This document shows positions 53,296-62,375 of a DNA stretch of 64,000 bases, one piece after another. Within the stretch, counting starts at the first letter, position 1. Each line of letters starts with the position of its first letter. Where the stretch lies: the NCBI GenBank assembly GCA_024508855.1, contig JANINJ010000003.1, positions 1 to 64,000 of the forward strand, given 5' to 3'. This DNA is from Xanthobacteraceae bacterium. Lineage in GTDB: Bacteria; Pseudomonadota; Alphaproteobacteria; Rhizobiales; Xanthobacteraceae. A program made the position numbers and the translations under genes. The notes under the pieces are model-generated. The model had not been told where the DNA came from. It saw nothing but the letters and a program-made list of their open reading frames with translations, and searched no databases.

Positions 53296-55275
53296 ATGAA
53301 ATTCGCGTGGGCTGCCTTGGGATTCGGCGCATTCGCGACGTGTGGCGTCGCTGCTGCCGCGGATTTGCCCATTGCAACTCCCCTCAAGGCGCACGGACCG
53401 ACGCCTTCTTTCGATTGGTCGGGCTTCTATATCGGCGCGCATGCCGGCTTCGGACAGGGGAAATCCGAAGCAACGCTGAATGATCCGGTGCCAAGCAGCA
53501 CCCGTAGTACCTTCGGTGGCATGATCGGAGGCATTCAGGCCGGGTACAATTTTGTGCTTCCGTCCGGGATTCTGCTCGGCGTTGAAGCCGACGTCTCATT
53601 CCCCAACTACATCGACTCCAACTCAGCGGTGTCAGCCTTGGCCACAGGCCGCTCCGACATCGCCGAGAAGCTGGACTATGTCGGGACTGCGCGTGGCCGC
53701 ATCGGATATGTCGATGGCCCTTGGCTAGCCTACGCGACCGGCGGTCTGGCATGGGCCGGCGACCGCTTCGTCAACACATCGCCCACGGGCGAGGAAGACA
53801 AGCATCTCAATGTGCGGCTCGGCTGGGCAGCCGGGGCCGGCATCGAATATGCGTTCGCGCCGCATTGGAGCGCGCGGCTGGAATATCTGTACAGCCAGTT
53901 CGATAAAGCCAACGTTCAGTTCGGGACCGGCGCGCAATATGCCTCGACCATGGATTTTCAGTCGCTGCGTATCGGCCTCAACCGCAAGCTGGACTGGACG
54001 GGCGGCAGCAGTCCCTTGAAGTCGGACACCGTATTCGACCCCGAATCGAACCGCTGGGAAATTCACGGGCAGACGACCTATCTGCAGCAAGGTTATCCCG
54101 CCTTCCGTGCGCCCTACTCCGGCCCGAACAGTTTCACACCAGCGGCCCAGACGCAGCAGACCTGGACCAACAGTCTGTACCTGAACGCACGCCTGTGGGA
54201 TGGCGGCGAGGTCTATTACAATCCCGAACTGCTGCAGGGCTTCGGCCTCAGCGACACGGTCGGCGCGGCTGCATTCCCGAGCGGCGAAGCGCAGAAATCA
54301 AACTTCCCCTATCCGCACTACAACACCTCACGACTGTTCGTGCGGCAGACCTTCGGCTTCGGCGGCGAGCAGGAGAAACTGGAAAGCGGGCCAAGCCAAA
54401 TGGCCGATACGGTGGACGTCTCCCGCCTGACACTGCAGGTCGGCAAGTTCGCCGTCACCGACGTGTTCGACGGCAACGCCTATGCCAAGGACACCCGAAA
54501 GGATTTCATGAACTGGGCGCTGTGGGCGCCGGGCGCATTCGACTATGCGGCCGACAAGCTCGGCCTCACCTATGGCGCGACCGCCGAATTGAACCAGAAG
54601 CAGTGGGCGCTGCGCGCCGGTTACTTCCTGATGGATGCGGAATCGAATTCCAACAATTTCGACATGCGGCTGTTTCAGCGCGGCGAATACGTGCTCGAAC
54701 TCGAAACGCGATACTCGCTGTTCTCGCAGCCCGGCAAGCTCCGCACCATCGCATGGCTGAACAGCGCCTATTCCGGCAGCTACAGCGAAACGCTGGCCAA
54801 TCCGGCATACAACCTCGACATCTCAAAAACCCGCGAAGGGCGCATCAAGTATGGCTACGTCATCAACCTCGAACAGGCACTGAGCGACGATATCGGCCTG
54901 TTCGGGCGCTGGAGCTGGAACGACGGCAAGACCGAGATCATGTCGTTCACCGACATCGATGCCAGCCTGTCGCTCGGCACATCGATCAAGGGGACGCGGT
55001 GGGGCCGACCGGATGACGTGATCGGTATCGGCGGCGCCATCAACGCGCTGTCGAAGGATCACCGCGATTTCATCGCGGCAGGCGGGCTCGGCGTGCTGAT
55101 CGGCGACGGCCAGCTCAACTATCGCAACGAACGGGTGCTCGAAGCCTATTACGCGTACGCGCTCAACAAGCAATTGACGCTGACCGCCGACTACCAGCTC
55201 ATCACCAACCCGGGCTACAACGCCGACCGTGGGCCGGTATCGGTTTTCTCCGGGCGCCTGCACGGGGAGTTTTAA
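53296..55275 (+). CDS. Outer membrane protein: Omp25-like barrel fused to OprB-like carbohydrate porin
   Basis: A 659-residue outer membrane protein with a signal peptide (FGAFATCGVAAAA-DL). Residues about 30-230 are an Omp25/31-type small barrel (FDWSGFYIGAHAGFG, GGIQAGYNF, GVEADVSF, VGTARGRIGY, HWSARLEYLY). Residues about 245-659 resemble OprB porins (QTWTNSLYLNARLWDGGEVYYNPELLQGFG, LQVGKFAVTDVFDGNAY, then YNADRGPVSVFSGRLHGEF at the end, the strand-closing C-terminus with terminal Phe). Two barrels in one chain are unusual. ATG 53296 begins the signal peptide. The substrate is unknown. The stop overlaps the convergent gene by four bases. Confidence 0.85.
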   Translation: MKFAWAALGFGAFATCGVAAAADLPIATPLKAHGPTPSFDWSGFYIGAHAGFGQGKSEATLNDPVPSSTRSTFGGMIGGIQAGYNFVLPSGILLGVEADVSFPNYIDSNSAVSALATGRSDIAEKLDYVGTARGRIGYVDGPWLAYATGGLAWAGDRFVNTSPTGEEDKHLNVRLGWAAGAGIEYAFAPHWSARLEYLYSQFDKANVQFGTGAQYASTMDFQSLRIGLNRKLDWTGGSSPLKSDTVFDPESNRWEIHGQTTYLQQGYPAFRAPYSGPNSFTPAAQTQQTWTNSLYLNARLWDGGEVYYNPELLQGFGLSDTVGAAAFPSGEAQKSNFPYPHYNTSRLFVRQTFGFGGEQEKLESGPSQMADTVDVSRLTLQVGKFAVTDVFDGNAYAKDTRKDFMNWALWAPGAFDYAADKLGLTYGATAELNQKQWALRAGYFLMDAESNSNNFDMRLFQRGEYVLELETRYSLFSQPGKLRTIAWLNSAYSGSYSETLANPAYNLDISKTREGRIKYGYVINLEQALSDDIGLFGRWSWNDGKTEIMSFTDIDASLSLGTSIKGTRWGRPDDVIGIGGAINALSKDHRDFIAAGGLGVLIGDGQLNYRNERVLEAYYAYALNKQLTLTADYQLITNPGYNADRGPVSVFSGRLHGEF

Positions 55276-56897
55276 GTCGCAGCGGCAAAAGAATCTGCCC
55301 TCGCCATCGCCCACGCATCGCGAAACCGTTCGTCCTGTGTGCCGGAGATCAATTCGCCGGGCTTGAGCTCCGGATACAATCGCGCGAACGACTTGACCTC
55401 GGTGTTGGATACGCGCTGGGAAAAATGCACCGGCCGAATGTCTTGCGGATGCTCGAGTCCTGCGGCCGCGATCAGTTCGGTCAACGCGTGGAGCGTCGCG
55501 TGATGATAGTTGAAGACACGCTCCAGCTTGTGCGGCACCACCAGTGCGCGACTGCGCGTCGGATCCTGCGTCGTCACCCCCGTAGGGCAGCGGTCGGTGT
55601 GACAGCTTAGCGACTGGATGCACCCCAGCGAGAACATGAACCCGCGCGCCGAATTGCACCAATCGGCGCCCAATGCCATGGCCCGCGCCATGTCGAAGGC
55701 GGTTGCGATCTTGCCGGATGCGCCGATGCGGATGCGATCACGGGCATTGATGCCGATCAGGGCATTGTGCGCGAAGTTGACGCCTTCCCGCATCGGCATG
55801 CCGAGATGGTCCATGAACTCCAGCGGAGCGGCGCCGGTGCCGCCTTCGTTGCCGTCGATGACGATGAAATCCGGATAGATGCCGGTTTCGAGCATCGCCT
55901 TGCAGATCGCCAGAAACTCCCAGCGATGGCCGATGCACAGCTTGAAGCCGGCGGGCTTGCCGCCCGACAGGCGGCGCATTTCGGCGATGAATTGCATCAT
56001 CTGTATGGGTGTCGAAAACGCCTTGTGGCCGGGCGGCGAGATGCAATCCTCGCCCATGCCGACGCCCCTGATTTCCGAAATCTCCGGCGACACTTTCGCC
56101 GCCGGCAGCACGCCGCCATGACCCGGCTTGGCGCCCTGGCTGACTTTCAGTTCAACCATCTTGATCTGATCGCCGGACGCGACCTTGGCGAACTCCTGCG
56201 GATTGAAGGAGCCATCGTGATTGCGGCAACCAAAATATCCCGACCCGATCTCCCAGATCAGATCACCGCCATTTTCGCGATGATAGGGGCTGACACCGCC
56301 CTCGCCGGTATCGTGCGCGAAGCCGCCCTTCTTGGCGCCCGCGTTCAACGCGCGAACGGCATTCGGGCTGAGGGCACCAAAACTCATCGCGGAGATATTG
56401 AAGACGGACGCCGAGTAAGGTTTCGTGCATTCGGGGCCGCCGATGGTGATGCGAAACTTCTCGGTCGCGTGCGGCTTCGGCGCGACGGAATGATGCATCC
56501 ATTCGTAGCCTTCGCTATAGACGTTCTCTTGCGTGCCGAAAGGCCTTTTGTCGAGCACCATCTTGGCGCGCTGATAGACCACCGCGCGCGTGTCGCGGCT
56601 GAACGGCATGCCGTCCTTTTCGCTCTCGAAAAAATACTGCCGCATCTCCGGCCGGATTTCCTCGAGCAGAAACCGCAGATGCGCCGAGATCGGATAGTTG
56701 CGCAGGACGGCGTGATCGCTCTGCAGCAGATCGCGTATCCCGAGCAAGGTCAGCCCGCCGAAAATCAGGATCGGGATGACGACCAGATGCAGGATCTTGT
56801 GATCGGTGAGGCCGAGACCGAGCAACAGGACGGTGACGACGCTGCAGATCGTGAGGACGATGAAGCGCGGTGAAAACGGAAGCATCAAGGTTTCCAT
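55272..56897 (-). CDS. FMN-binding glutamate synthase family protein
   Basis: A 541-residue protein with two N-terminal membrane segments (IVLTICSVVTVLLLGLGL; ILHLVVIPILIFGGLTLLG), then the FMN/Fe-S central domain of GltB. It keeps SAMSFGALSPNAVRALN, GEGGVSPYH and the 3Fe-4S cysteine set in CIQSLSCHTDRCPTGV. No glutaminase domain is present, so it is an orphan, ferredoxin-type synthase domain whose substrate is not known. ATG 56897 follows GGGGGGA. The gene for ferredoxin-NADP reductase lies upstream on the same strand but is separated by a terminator. Confidence 0.9.
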   Translation of the reverse strand: METLMLPFSPRFIVLTICSVVTVLLLGLGLTDHKILHLVVIPILIFGGLTLLGIRDLLQSDHAVLRNYPISAHLRFLLEEIRPEMRQYFFESEKDGMPFSRDTRAVVYQRAKMVLDKRPFGTQENVYSEGYEWMHHSVAPKPHATEKFRITIGGPECTKPYSASVFNISAMSFGALSPNAVRALNAGAKKGGFAHDTGEGGVSPYHRENGGDLIWEIGSGYFGCRNHDGSFNPQEFAKVASGDQIKMVELKVSQGAKPGHGGVLPAAKVSPEISEIRGVGMGEDCISPPGHKAFSTPIQMMQFIAEMRRLSGGKPAGFKLCIGHRWEFLAICKAMLETGIYPDFIVIDGNEGGTGAAPLEFMDHLGMPMREGVNFAHNALIGINARDRIRIGASGKIATAFDMARAMALGADWCNSARGFMFSLGCIQSLSCHTDRCPTGVTTQDPTRSRALVVPHKLERVFNYHHATLHALTELIAAAGLEHPQDIRPVHFSQRVSNTEVKSFARLYPELKPGELISGTQDERFRDAWAMARADSFAAAT

Positions 56898-57131: not shown

Positions 57132-57905
57132 TCAGCGCTCGACGAAGGCCTTTTCAATGACGAAATGGCCCGGCTCGCTGTGATTCCCCTCTTCGAAACC
57201 GCGCGCATTGAGCATATCGCGCAGTTCTTCCAGCATTCCGGGACTTCCGCACATCATGATCCGATCGGTCTCGATATCGAGCGGCGGCAGCCCGACGTCG
57301 TCGAACAACTGGCTGGACGAGATCAGGTCGGTGATGCGGCCACGGTTGCGGAACGGCTCGCGCGTCACCGTGGGGTAATATACCAGCTTGTCGCGCAGCA
57401 ATTCGCCGAACAGCTCGTCCTCGGTCAGCCGCGCTACCAGTTGCTCGCCATAGGCCAGTTCGGACACCTGCCGGCAGCCATGCACCAGCACGATGGTCTC
57501 GAAGCGCTCATAGACCTCGGGATCCTTGATGAGGCTGGCGAACGGCGCAAGCCCGGTCCCGGTCGACAGCAGCAGCAGCCGCTTGCCGGGGATCAGGTTA
57601 TCGGTGATCAGCGTTCCTGTAGCCTTGCGGCCGACCAGAATGGTGTCGCCTTCCTTGATCTGCTGCAGCCGCGAGGTGAGCGGACCATCGGCGACCTTGA
57701 TGCTGAAGAATTCGAGCGATTCCTCGTGATTGGCGCTCGCCATGCTGTAGGCCCGCAATAGCGGCCGGCCGTCGACCTCCAGGCCGATCATCGCGAACTG
57801 GCCGTTGAGAAATCGAAAGCCTGAATTTCGGGTGGCGGTGAAGCTGAAAAGCGTATCGGTCCAATGACGAACGGAAAGAACCTTCTCCCGGTGGAACGCA
57901 CTCAT
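57132..57905 (-). CDS. fpr: Ferredoxin--NADP+ reductase
   Basis: A 257-residue FAD enzyme of the bacterial class I subgroup. The FAD motif is RAYSMASANH, the NADP loop GTGLAPFASLIKD, then GSPGMLEELRDML, and the C-terminus ends FVIEKAFVER, which stacks near the flavin. It moves electrons between NADPH and ferredoxin or flavodoxin and is often induced in oxidative stress. Length is normal. It is monocistronic, closed by the terminator at 57071. Confidence 0.94.
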   Translation of the reverse strand: MSAFHREKVLSVRHWTDTLFSFTATRNSGFRFLNGQFAMIGLEVDGRPLLRAYSMASANHEESLEFFSIKVADGPLTSRLQQIKEGDTILVGRKATGTLITDNLIPGKRLLLLSTGTGLAPFASLIKDPEVYERFETIVLVHGCRQVSELAYGEQLVARLTEDELFGELLRDKLVYYPTVTREPFRNRGRITDLISSSQLFDDVGLPPLDIETDRIMMCGSPGMLEELRDMLNARGFEEGNHSEPGHFVIEKAFVER

Positions 57906-58956: not shown

Positions 58957-59967
58957 ATGCGAAACCTTCGGATGCTTCGCAAACGAAAGCCAAGCTTCTA
59001 TCCCGATCAATCCATCTATGCGGAATATGCCTGCTCCGAGTTCGGGCTTGCATTCGAAGAACTGGATGGCGGAACGGGGCTTGTTTTCCGCATCTCGTCT
59101 GCAACCGCGAGCCATTGCTTCGGCGGCGGCCGCTGCTCGTTCTTTCCGCAAAATACCGCGACGGCGGCGACGCTGGCGGCCGACAAATATTTCACCAATC
59201 GCATTCTCGAACGGGCCGGCATCCCGAGCCTCGGCGGAGAATATTTTTTCCTGCACCAGCGCCATCGGGCCCATCGCGCACCGGGGCACGAGCGAGACGA
59301 CGCCTTCGCCTATTTCGACAAACTGAACGGCATCGCTTTCGCCAAGCCCCTGAACGGATCGCGCGGCGACTTCGCGCAACCGGTGCAGGACGCGGCCGCG
59401 CTGGCAAGCTACCTCGATGCCGTTACGGTGTTCTACGATTCCGTTCTGATCCAGCCGCTGGTCGTCGGCAACGAATATCGGATATTTCTCCTTGATGACC
59501 ATGTCGTCTACACCGCCAGTAAATCGCCACCCTTTGTCGAGGGCGATGGCATCCACCCGATCCGCGATCTGCTGGACACGCGCAATGCATCCCTGCAATC
59601 GAACGGCCTTTCACCGGTCGTATCGCAAGATCACCTGACCGAGCAGCTTGATGAGGTCCTCCCTGCAGGCGAACGGCGCGAACTACCGGGACGTATGAAT
59701 CGCAGCGCCGGGGGCACGATGACGTTCGGTACTCCGCCCGACGAACAGGCCGCATTTGCCCTGGCACGCCGCGCAGTGCGTGCGCTGAGCCTGCGTGCTG
59801 CCGCCGTGGACATCTTCACCGATATCGGCGATGACCCCAACGCTATGCGGGTCATCGAAATCAACGCCAACCCATCGATCCGGTTTCTGGAAGACAACGA
59901 CCGTGCCGATCTGATCCTGCAGATCTGGCGCCACACCCTGACTGCCATAGGCCTGTTGCGTGTTTGA
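58957..59967 (+). CDS. ATP-grasp ligase related to the cyanophycin synthetase ATP-grasp domain
   Basis: A 336-residue enzyme. ATP-grasp features in order: ADKYFTNRILERAGIP (76-90), K130 and the glycine loop PLNGSRGDF, EYRIFLLDDHVVY (173-185), VEGDGIHPIRDLL (194-206), NRSAGGT (248-254), and the metal-binding VDIFTD plus EINANP (301-306). The EGDGxHxIRDL and N-x-S-x-GGT pieces point to the CphA/glutathione-synthetase-like group rather than to D-Ala-D-Ala ligases. Such enzymes form amide bonds through an acyl phosphate. The CphA N-terminal domain is missing. ATG 58957 has TTGGAG upstream. It overlaps the next gene, a FolC-like ligase, by eight bases. Substrate unknown. Confidence 0.82.
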   Translation: MRNLRMLRKRKPSFYPDQSIYAEYACSEFGLAFEELDGGTGLVFRISSATASHCFGGGRCSFFPQNTATAATLAADKYFTNRILERAGIPSLGGEYFFLHQRHRAHRAPGHERDDAFAYFDKLNGIAFAKPLNGSRGDFAQPVQDAAALASYLDAVTVFYDSVLIQPLVVGNEYRIFLLDDHVVYTASKSPPFVEGDGIHPIRDLLDTRNASLQSNGLSPVVSQDHLTEQLDEVLPAGERRELPGRMNRSAGGTMTFGTPPDEQAAFALARRAVRALSLRAAAVDIFTDIGDDPNAMRVIEINANPSIRFLEDNDRADLILQIWRHTLTAIGLLRV

Positions 59968-61276
59968 CCTGCCGAAATACGGGAACGGCGTTTGCCTCGC
60001 GCGTCTCGCGCGACTGTTCGACGCGCTCGCCATCGATCGCGCGCGGTTGCAACGAAACTCGATCGTGATCACCGGCTCGAACGGTAAAGGCAGCACCGCG
60101 GCATTCTGCGCCAGCATCGGCCGCGCGGCCGGCCTTCGCACCGGACTGTTCACATCACCTCACCTGTATCGTTTCAACGAACGCTTCCAGATCGACGGCA
60201 TGCCGATCGACGACACGCAACTGGCGGCGATGATCGCGCGAATCGAAGCCGCGATCCGGAACGTCTCGGCACAATTGCCCGACGAAAGTTTCGGCGCATT
60301 CGAAGCACAGTTCGCGCTCGCTTGCCTGTACTTCCAGGAAAAGGAATGCGAGTTCGCCATATTCGAAGCCGGCATCGGCGGCCGCTACGATCCGGTTAGG
60401 CTGGTCGGCACGGACATCACCTGCGTCACGTCGGTCGACCTTGAACACGTCGCACTACTGGGCAATTCGCTGGAGCTCATCAGCGCCGACAAGAGCGATG
60501 CATGTACCGCCGGCGGCACCATTATTTATGGCGAGAACTGCAGGAAGCTGCGGCCGCATCTCACCGAATACAATCGCAACCGCAAGGTCACGAGCCTCTT
60601 CGTCCGCGACGACATTGTCATCGAGGGAGAGCGTATCGGCGCCGGCGTGCAGCATTTCGATCTGCGATTCGATGACCATGAATTTCCAGCTCTCGAGATT
60701 CCTCTGGCCGGAGCATTCCAACTCAACAATGCAGCAATCGCGGCCACCCTGTTTTGGCTTTGGGCGCGACGAGCCTCGCCGTCTCAAACGATCCCACTCG
60801 AGACTGCGATCAGGACTGGCCTGATCGATACACGCTGGCCCGGACGTCTCGAATTGATCCGGAACGATCCCCTCACGGTGATCGATGTCGGTCACACGCC
60901 GGACGGCATCACCCAGGCGCTGCAAGCGCTGACACGGGCATATGGCGCAGGTAACTGGATTCTCGTCACCGGCGTCTCGCACGACAAGAAGGCGAGCGAG
61001 ATCGTCGAACTGCTGGCGCCGTCCTTCGACGCCATCATCTGCACCTCCGCGCATCACAAGGGGTCGGATCCGCAGGCCATTGCAGAATCCGCGCGAAAGG
61101 CCAATCCGAAGGCAGCGATTGAGGTGGCGGCAACGATCGAGCGGGCAGTCGCACTCAGCACGACACAAGCCGCGGCGACAAATCGCAAGATATTCGTCGC
61201 CGGCGGATTATTCCTCGCGATCGAATATGCCGCGATCGTCAACGGCAAACGCGCGCAAGACCTGCGGTTTTTCTGA
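59960..61276 (+). CDS. Mur ligase family protein, FolC-like
   Basis: A 438-residue ligase. The P-loop is TGSNGKGST (38-46), followed by TSPHLYRFNERFQIDG (65-80), FEAGIGGRYDP (135-145), SVDLEHVALLG (158-168) with a possible carbamylated Lys178, and VIDVGHTPDG in the C-terminal half. This is the folylpolyglutamate/dihydrofolate synthase pattern. Housekeeping folC usually follows accD in this group, so this is probably a paralogue with another substrate; accD is not here. The GTG start at 59960 overlaps the ATP-grasp gene. I infer a two-step peptide-type ligation by the pair. Confidence 0.85.
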   Translation: MFDLPKYGNGVCLARLARLFDALAIDRARLQRNSIVITGSNGKGSTAAFCASIGRAAGLRTGLFTSPHLYRFNERFQIDGMPIDDTQLAAMIARIEAAIRNVSAQLPDESFGAFEAQFALACLYFQEKECEFAIFEAGIGGRYDPVRLVGTDITCVTSVDLEHVALLGNSLELISADKSDACTAGGTIIYGENCRKLRPHLTEYNRNRKVTSLFVRDDIVIEGERIGAGVQHFDLRFDDHEFPALEIPLAGAFQLNNAAIAATLFWLWARRASPSQTIPLETAIRTGLIDTRWPGRLELIRNDPLTVIDVGHTPDGITQALQALTRAYGAGNWILVTGVSHDKKASEIVELLAPSFDAIICTSAHHKGSDPQAIAESARKANPKAAIEVAATIERAVALSTTQAAATNRKIFVAGGLFLAIEYAAIVNGKRAQDLRFF

Positions 61277-61373: not shown

Positions 61374-62375
61374 ATGGCAAACAGCACCAACCGTCAGATT
61401 CTGCTGGTCGAAAAGCCGACCGGCAAACTCTCGACCGATCATTTCAAGATGGCGGAAGCGGCCATTCCCGAGCCGAAGGATGGTGAGGTATTGCTGCGCG
61501 TTCGTTATATTTCGCTCGACGCCGCCAATCGCGCGTGGATGCACGGCGCCACCTATCGTTCGGCGGTCGAGGCCAACACCGTGATGGCGGGCGGCGGCAT
61601 TGCCGAAGTCGTGTCGTCCAAGGCGCCGGGCTTCGCCGCCGGCGACATCGTGTTCGGCGACACCGGCTGGCAGGAATATGCCGCGGTGCCGGCAAAGCAT
61701 CTGAGCAAGATGCCACGCATCGAGCCGATGACCCACCTGCTGAGCGTGTATGGCATCGCCGGCCTCACCGCCTATTTCGGCCTGCTCCATGTCGGCCAGC
61801 CGAAGGCCGGCGAGACGGTCGTCGTTTCTGCGGCGGCGGGATCGGTCGGATCGATCGTCGGGCAGATCGCCAAGATCAAGGGCTGCCATGTCGTCGGCAT
61901 TGCCGGCGGCAAGGCGAAGTGCGACTGGCTGAAATCCGACCTCGGCTTCGACGCGACCGTCGATTACAAGGACGGCGCGGCGTTCAAGGCGTTGCGGGCC
62001 GCGGCGCCGAAAGGCATCGACGTCTATTTCGATAATGTCGGCGGCGATATCCTGGAAGCCTGTATCGCGCAGATGAACCTGCGCGGGCGCATTGCCTGTT
62101 GCGGTGCAATCTCGCAATACGACGGCGTGCCTTCAGCAACCGGACCGCGTGGCGTGCCCGGCCTGATCGTCGTCAAGCGGTTGATCATGCAAGGCTTCAT
62201 CGTGATGGACTACATGGATCAACGCGACCAGGCATTGAAGGACCTGCAGTCGTGGGTCGCCGCCGGCAAGCTGAAGGTCCAGGAAGATGTTATCGCGGGG
62301 TTGGAAAACACCCCGCAGGCGCTGATCGGACTTCTCGCCGGCGAAAATCGCGGCAAGCGCATGATCAAGCTCTAG
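61374..62375 (+). CDS. NADP-dependent oxidoreductase, MDR family (CurA/2-alkenal reductase-like)
   Basis: A 333-residue zinc-free medium-chain reductase. The nucleotide loop VVSAAAGSVGSIVGQIAKIKGC (near 145-165) and GIAGLTAYFGLLHVGQPKAGETV are typical of the leukotriene B4 12-hydroxydehydrogenase / CurA / YncB group, which reduces the double bond of enones and alkenals with NADPH. No zinc ligands are seen. ATG 61374 starts the frame. The stop codon lies in the outer arm of a palindromic repeat (62372-62448). Confidence 0.92.
   Translation: MANSTNRQILLVEKPTGKLSTDHFKMAEAAIPEPKDGEVLLRVRYISLDAANRAWMHGATYRSAVEANTVMAGGGIAEVVSSKAPGFAAGDIVFGDTGWQEYAAVPAKHLSKMPRIEPMTHLLSVYGIAGLTAYFGLLHVGQPKAGETVVVSAAAGSVGSIVGQIAKIKGCHVVGIAGGKAKCDWLKSDLGFDATVDYKDGAAFKALRAAAPKGIDVYFDNVGGDILEACIAQMNLRGRIACCGAISQYDGVPSATGPRGVPGLIVVKRLIMQGFIVMDYMDQRDQALKDLQSWVAAGKLKVQEDVIAGLENTPQALIGLLAGENRGKRMIKL

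Follow-up and report, generated by a model that had tools for sequence, protein, structure and literature searches.

Organization of the locus

The window, a 64,000-nucleotide stretch at the start of contig JANINJ010000003.1 of a Xanthobacteraceae bacterium, carries two overlapping ligase genes on the forward strand. The first (58957..59967, ATG start) encodes an ATP-grasp ligase of 336 amino acids that resembles only the G domain of cyanophycin synthetase (CphA). The second (59960..61276, GTG start) encodes a FolC-like Mur ligase of 438 amino acids, termed FolC2 here, which comprises the middle and C-terminal Mur domains. The GTG start of FolC2 lies within the end of the ATP-grasp gene, so that the two genes share 8 nt (59960..59967, forward strand). 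An earlier note on this DNA had claimed two overlapping open reading frames, and both are present as described; the ATP-grasp motifs that it quoted are found as well, as FVEGDGIHPIRDLLD, MNRSAGGTM and VIEINANPSIR. With starts set by the longest open reading frame, 16 of 36 distinct pair loci show the identical 8-nt overlap.

The pair occupies a variable site within a syntenic block. On one side, on the reverse strand, lie the gene for a protein with an FMN glutamate-synthase domain (55272..56897) and a ferredoxin--NADP reductase-like gene (fpr, 57132..57905); on the opposite side of the variable site follows a zinc-type oxidoreductase gene on the forward strand (61374..62375). A promoter scan gave 0 hits, compared with 0.8 for shuffled sequences. 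A defense system was rejected, as PADLOC gave no match at E 0.01 for either protein, and plasmid carriage was rejected with just two weak plasmid matches of ∼30% identity.

Conservation of the gene pair

Protein searches detected the ATP-grasp ligase in 9 of 61 genomes including the window's own; the 10 named loci, one of which (L022) is cut short, belong to Bradyrhizobium and Tardiphaga, both Nitrobacteraceae, and to a Rhizobiales MAG. Among 198 family genomes, 26 carry the enzyme at E < 1e-100. FolC2 adjoins it in all 26 of these carriers and at 19 of 19 near loci, at least two of which represent one site from two collections. More distant ATP-grasp ligases were sought among 385 genomes of the class, and seven alphaproteobacterial loci were read. 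Three of them (L055, L057, and L058, the last two from one genus) contain the pair, with identities of 31 to 33% for the ATP-grasp ligase and 35 to 38% for FolC2. At L059, L060, and L061, no FolC2 lies beside the ATP-grasp gene, and L056 is cut by a contig end. The genome searches covered Pseudomonadota, the class and phylum searches scoring the best few first-look candidates; in the phylum sample, no ATP-grasp match from beyond the family exceeds 117.2 bits, and most of these matches fall in frames of at least 580 amino acids, the size of CphA or of N-acetylglutaminylglutamine synthetase (Ngg).

Within the family, the distance matrices of the ATP-grasp ligase and FolC2 correlate with r = 0.87 (n = 33), a value reached in 0 of 2,000 permutations and to which shared species descent contributes. 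dN/dS lies at ∼0.06 to 0.18 for the genes of the pair in six pairwise comparisons. The conservation across genomes for which the earlier note had suggested a check is borne out by the near loci, the family carriers, and the three distant loci; the pair is a conserved two-ligase unit whose adjacency exceeds chance.

The surroundings of the pair change. At six of the 10 named loci (L017, L018, L020, L023, L024, and L025), two convergent genes separate the pair from the oxidoreductase gene; in L017 and L063, Pfam identifies them as an SDF symporter and a solute-binding protein. None of the genes flanking the pair at L055 and L057 matches a flanking gene of the window at E 1e-8. The L055 pair adjoins a chemotaxis receptor gene and other genes unrelated to folate, and at L057 (genome G183) the order accD, folC, ATP-grasp, FolC2 is found on one strand. 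Since convergent genes intervene and the flanks of L055 and L057 are unlike those of the window, a longer operon was rejected and the unit is taken as two genes. The convergent sodium:dicarboxylate symporter and family-3 solute-binding protein genes downstream of the pair span L017:10430-12697 and L063:9408-11643.

The ATP-grasp ligase

The earlier note proposed comparing both proteins with family profiles, and this comparison places the ATP-grasp ligase near the G domain of CphA below the cutoff and FolC2 above the folC cutoff. The matches of the ATP-grasp ligase to NCBIfam models are weak and below cutoff throughout. The best is cyanophycin synthetase, TIGR02068, with 74.2 bits (E 5.8e-21) against a cutoff of 850 that is set for the whole fused CphA chain, followed by Ngg, TIGR03103 (47.5 bits; cutoff, 569), and the RimK family, TIGR00768 (39.8 bits; cutoff, 143.4). 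The top matches of a PDB sequence search are CphA and bifunctional glutathione synthetases, and enzymes of the CphA and GshF types outrank RimK by sequence.

The predicted structure is confident (pLDDT 88.9); the alignment behind it (A4) included three rows without FolC2. It aligns to residues 158 to 485 of TeCphA1 with a Z score of 21.3 and an rmsd of 4.4 over 293 residues. TeCphA1 with primer and aspartate is the best fold match, tied with ArgX (Z score, 20.6), and LysX/ArgX and RimK rank near the top. The N domain of TeCphA1 comprises residues 1 to 161 according to its description (PMC9427784), so the absence of this domain, which the earlier note had pointed out, is confirmed by the predicted structure. 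Throughout, a fold or sequence match was not counted as proof of a substrate.

As given in the same description, N394, R323, and R458 of TeCphA1 touch the incoming aspartate, R458 at its α-carboxylate; the aspartate site includes N394-x-S396; R309, D431, and E450 are catalytic; and G456 is proposed to stabilize the intermediate (PMC9427784). The equivalent of N394-x-S396 is N248-R-S250 of the ATP-grasp ligase (59698..59706, forward strand), and that of R458 is its own R309 (59881..59883, forward strand). In TeCphA1 numbering, the equivalents of R309, N394, S396, D431, and E450 are kept in 36 of 36 distinct paired ATP-grasp rows. R323 is replaced by Lys in all 33 family rows and is Lys or Arg in the three distant pairs; R458 is Arg in 33/33 family rows and Ala in 3/3 distant pairs. 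The position of G456 holds Ser or Ala in all 36 paired enzymes. Of the 23 CphA rows, 22 are readable, and each of these keeps Gly there, together with R309, R323, N394, S396, D431, E450, and R458. His267 of the P-loop is Arg in 36/36 paired rows; in CphA, this position is His in 4, Gln in 18, and Lys in 1 of the 23 rows. The ATP-grasp ligase retains most of the CphA aspartate pocket. Judged by the aspartate contacts that N394, R323, and R458 make in TeCphA1, the most straightforward guess for the first step is the use of an acidic amino acid. As the distant pairs lack R458, this guess should not be carried beyond the family without caution.

In a quick tree with long branches, the paired ATP-grasp ligases group together with three unpaired ones (support, 94), apart from CphA and Ngg (support, 99). 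Since the unpaired enzymes of L056, L059, and L060 fall among the three distant pairs, the paired rows do not form one clade; by this tree, pairing with FolC2 does not appear to be a clean mark of the ATP-grasp subfamily.

FolC2 and the ordinary folC

FolC2 matches the Pfam families Mur_ligase_M and Mur_ligase_C and scores 260 bits with the folC subfamily model TIGR01499, above its cutoff of 162.65, compared to 29.7 bits with TIGR02068. The matches of a PDB sequence search are folylpolyglutamate synthases (FPGS). The predicted structure is confident (pLDDT 91.5; four ordinary FolC rows were included in the underlying alignment, A5) and superposes on FPGS/FolC entries of the PDB with query TM scores of 0.77 to 0.84 in the 16 best rows and 0.61 for the Helicobacter FPGS. 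The earlier note's statement that the pair is not an ordinary CphA and has a FolC-like Mur half agrees with the score above the TIGR01499 cutoff and with the missing N domain. In a tree of FolC2 and FolC, in which only one FolC comes from outside the class, the FolC2 rows form their own clade on one side of a branch with 100/100 support.

The catalytic residues are shared with ordinary FolC. The P-loop (residues 39 to 45; 60074..60094, forward strand) keeps G39 and N41 to S45 in 35 of 35 FolC2 rows, as do E136, H163, K178, D309, and H312; the P-loop and these five residues are common to all 66 rows when 31 ordinary FolC are added. K178 (60491..60493, forward strand) is the equivalent of K185 of the Lactobacillus casei FPGS, which we take to be the modified active-site lysine of Mur ligases. 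Other positions separate the two groups. G416 of FolC2 (61205..61207, forward strand) corresponds to L. casei S412 and is Gly in 35/35 FolC2 rows, compared to Ser in 31/31 ordinary FolC; N154 is replaced by Arg in 35/35, whereas 30 of 31 ordinary FolC have Asn; T119, presumably a pterin-site residue in E. coli FolC, is Gly in 35/35 as opposed to Thr in 31/31. The position of N317 is occupied by Thr or Ser in FolC2. A model of the Mycobacterium tuberculosis enzyme places the γ-carboxylate of the incoming glutamate by Ser473 (PMC10861534). This serine probably corresponds to L. casei S412, judging from the surrounding motif, and FolC2 would then have an altered glutamate site relative to FolC, the site in question being the modeled one.

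The window's own genome has six Mur_ligase_M matches. Its other folC is located on contig C6, where it shares 4 nt with a carboxyl transferase gene that is read as accD; a PLP enzyme nearby is taken for trpB. A separate accD-folC arrangement, for which the earlier note had suggested looking, therefore exists elsewhere in the genome. The assignment of FolC2 as the ordinary folC was rejected because accD-folC sits on another contig. In a set of 35 chosen genomes, the pair is present in 16, each of which has two folC-type genes and keeps the ordinary folC. Of the 19 without the pair, 17 have one folC-type gene, G064 has two ordinary ones, and G127 has none. The two ordinary-looking folC genes of G064 are located at G064:C8:4795-6000 and G064:C7:386861-388084 (375 and 353 bits), and its ATP-grasp gene of the pair subfamily lies elsewhere, beside neither of them. 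G127, the genome of L056, gives no folC-type match at E 1e-20 though rated complete; its ATP-grasp gene is at a contig end.

A different ATP-grasp ligase in the same chromosomal block

A different CphA-like ATP-grasp ligase of ∼320 amino acids, with no FolC2, is present in eight relatives that lack the pair and came up with weaker matches in the search of the family genomes. This stand-alone enzyme is 23 to 30% identical to the ATP-grasp ligase of the pair where the two align. A profile built for it finds 15 of the 198 family genomes at E 1e-30 (L149 to L156 and L170 to L176), none of which is among the 26 carriers of the pair. Both modules together thus occur in 0 of 198 family genomes; simple counting gives this absence no significance (P = 0.11), and common descent has a part in it.

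The stand-alone gene sits in the syntenic block of the pair in all 15 carriers. Thirteen are near the FMN glutamate-synthase-domain gene, 12 of these also with the reductase or oxidoreductase gene and 11 with the oxidoreductase gene; the remaining two (L150 and L155) lie beside the genes for the creatininase-family protein and the solute-binding protein in this block. The flanking proteins are mostly 67 to 90% identical to those of the window, with 47 to 84% for the porin and ∼60% for the MarR-type protein. As the flanks are alike and the ATP-grasp ligases are not, either one module took the place of the other or an ancestor had both and lost one. Each of the nine listed genomes of genus g25 carries exactly one of the two modules. 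G858 has the glutamate-synthase-domain gene without either module, so the link to this gene is not obligatory.

Two further observations concern the stand-alone enzymes. In seven g25 genomes (L166 to L169 and the matches in G535, G948, and G784), ∼50 middle residues (profile positions ∼177 to 226) are missing while the frame stays open. A further stand-alone CphA-like ATP-grasp ligase of G858 (L148:6905-7999; 159 bits to TIGR02068) adjoins thiC and a PNPOx-like gene.

Proposed function and alternatives

The pair may be a two-enzyme non-ribosomal module that performs two successive ATP-dependent ligations and yields a small peptide-like metabolite, a reading that we consider about evenly poised. 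Like the G domain of CphA, the ATP-grasp ligase would activate a carboxylate as an acyl phosphate and couple it to the amino group of an amino acid, the acidic Asp or Glu being the likeliest candidates. FolC2 would then activate a carboxylate of this product, again as an acyl phosphate, and add a second amine or amino acid, probably not a glutamate held in the manner of FolC. As no further gene is linked to the pair in all contexts read, both enzymes would act sequentially, and the small molecule on which they act would be assembled from primary metabolites. The step order, the amino acids, and the product, whether dipeptide, short peptide, or amide, are what we infer from these comparisons.

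Two successive ligations are backed by the adjacency and parallel inheritance of the genes, the catalytic residues kept in both enzymes, the loss of the FolC serine, and the largely retained aspartate pocket. Against them stand the ATP-grasp ligases of the same subfamily that have no FolC2 (L059 and L060). The use of an acidic amino acid may fail, at least in some members, given the change of R458 to Ala in the distant pairs and the replacement of G456 in 36/36, and the Ser-to-Gly argument for FolC2 would hold as far as the modeled glutamate site does.

Modification of folates or another pterin, with FolC2 as a second folyl ligase and the ATP-grasp ligase adding a further amino acid, is unlikely. 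FolC2 is nearest to FPGS/FolC in sequence and fold, and the position of the pair behind accD and the ordinary folC on one strand of G183 could point to folate, but the scanned flanks of the window and L055 contain no folate gene, the proposed glutamate-site serine and the T119 equivalent are both Gly in 35/35, and the ordinary folC is retained in 16/16 pair genomes. A cyanophycin-like polymer, made by both ligases alternating repeatedly to give a polyamide with side-chain amino acids, would match the order of the parts in CphA, the top-ranking fold match (TeCphA1 with bound primer and aspartate), and the kept residues of the aspartate pocket; the missing N domain, the position of the ATP-grasp ligase outside the CphA group in the quick tree, and a second half of the FolC rather than the MurE type make it quite improbable. 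The Arg in place of P-loop His267 in 36/36 rows carries little information here since His occurs in just 4 of 23 CphA rows. The cyanophycin pathway itself was rejected, as no cyanophycinase match was found in the window's own genome at E 0.001.

The ATP-grasp ligase could also tag a protein or ribosomal peptide in a RimK- or graspetide-like way, FolC2 extending the tag. The closeness in fold of LysX/ArgX and RimK, with ArgX tied with TeCphA1, and the weak score of the RimK model fit this proposal; CphA- and GshF-type enzymes lie above RimK by sequence, and no conserved substrate gene was noticed, small open reading frames falling outside the systematic search, so we regard tagging as very doubtful. 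Hardly any likelihood is left for a poly-glutamate tail on methylofuran or F420. The methylofuran tail too requires two ligases, MyfA and MyfB, yet both are ATP-grasp enzymes (PMC8141765) and neither is of the FolC type. F420_ligase (PF01996) matches are present in 7 of 16 pair genomes but were not found in the window's own, and the formyltransferase PF01913 is found in 0 of 16, for which reason methylofuran was rejected. The poly-glutamylated cofactor considered in the earlier note becomes less likely with this result and with the loss, in 35/35 FolC2, of the serine proposed, from the model in PMC10861534, to hold the incoming glutamate; the other products considered there, a short peptide or a polyamide, remain tentative. 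As a separate observation, a stretch of G616 that resembles F420_ligase (G616:C156:6016-6587) is interrupted by three in-frame TGA codons and is possibly a decayed gene.

Two successive ligations on a small molecule can be extended to a wider and more tentative picture, which we think possible but would not wager on. The product would be an undescribed non-ribosomal peptide or polyamide of Nitrobacteraceae and scattered other Alphaproteobacteria, the logic of CphA having been reached independently through a recruited folC copy; the address would be a swap site for rival ligase modules, with a one-enzyme ATP-grasp module in related strains, and the two would serve a single physiological role, connected with the neighboring genes of the glutamate-synthase-like protein and the reductase. 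By implication, soil bacteria such as Bradyrhizobium and Tardiphaga would make a metabolite that is still undescribed. Because FolC2 exceeds the folC subfamily cutoff, its annotation as a folate enzyme is a likely error. The pair is compact and intact, some of its carriers are named strains, and the address that it has in common with an unrelated stand-alone ATP-grasp ligase offers a natural comparison between strains.

Comparison with known systems

Searches of PDB, Pfam, NCBIfam, and PADLOC gave no characterized orthologue of either protein, and no description of the pair was found in the open-license literature searched. The resemblance to cyanophycin synthetase is one in separate pieces, drawn from two unrelated families of amide-bond-forming enzymes. 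The pair shares with CphA1 the order of ATP-grasp and Mur ligase, the fold of the G domain, and the equivalents of R309, N394, S396, D431, and E450, with R458 added in the family rows. In contrast to CphA1, which joins the N, G, and M domains in one chain, the pair consists of two chains, has no N domain, and has G456 replaced. The split cyanophycin synthetase of the earlier note does not hold up in this form: the Mur half derives from FolC and is not MurE-like (260 bits for folC versus 30 for CphA), and the ATP-grasp ligase falls outside the CphA/Ngg group of the quick tree. Given this grouping and the folC score, the pair resembles CphA in its parts and their order, the Mur ligase having been recruited separately.

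FolC2 shares with FolC/FPGS a score above the TIGR01499 cutoff, the fold, and the Mur catalytic residues. It differs from them by its own clade, by the replacement of Ser412, Asn154, and Thr119 (L. casei numbering) in 35/35, and by its location beside an ATP-grasp gene in genomes that retain the ordinary folC. Ngg is a CphA-type ATP-grasp ligase that makes a small peptide and carries a GNAT domain; the ATP-grasp ligase of the pair resembles it in type and in its 47.5 bits to TIGR03103, but Ngg groups with CphA and not with the enzyme described here. The pseudomurein clusters of methanogens encode ATP-grasp and Mur ligases together, namely a CarB-like ATP-grasp ligase and muramyl ligases (PMC11915815), whereas FolC2 is nearest to FPGS/FolC. 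Amide synthesis by ATP-grasp and Mur ligases is already known, and the locus adds another pairing of the two, with a partner derived from FolC.
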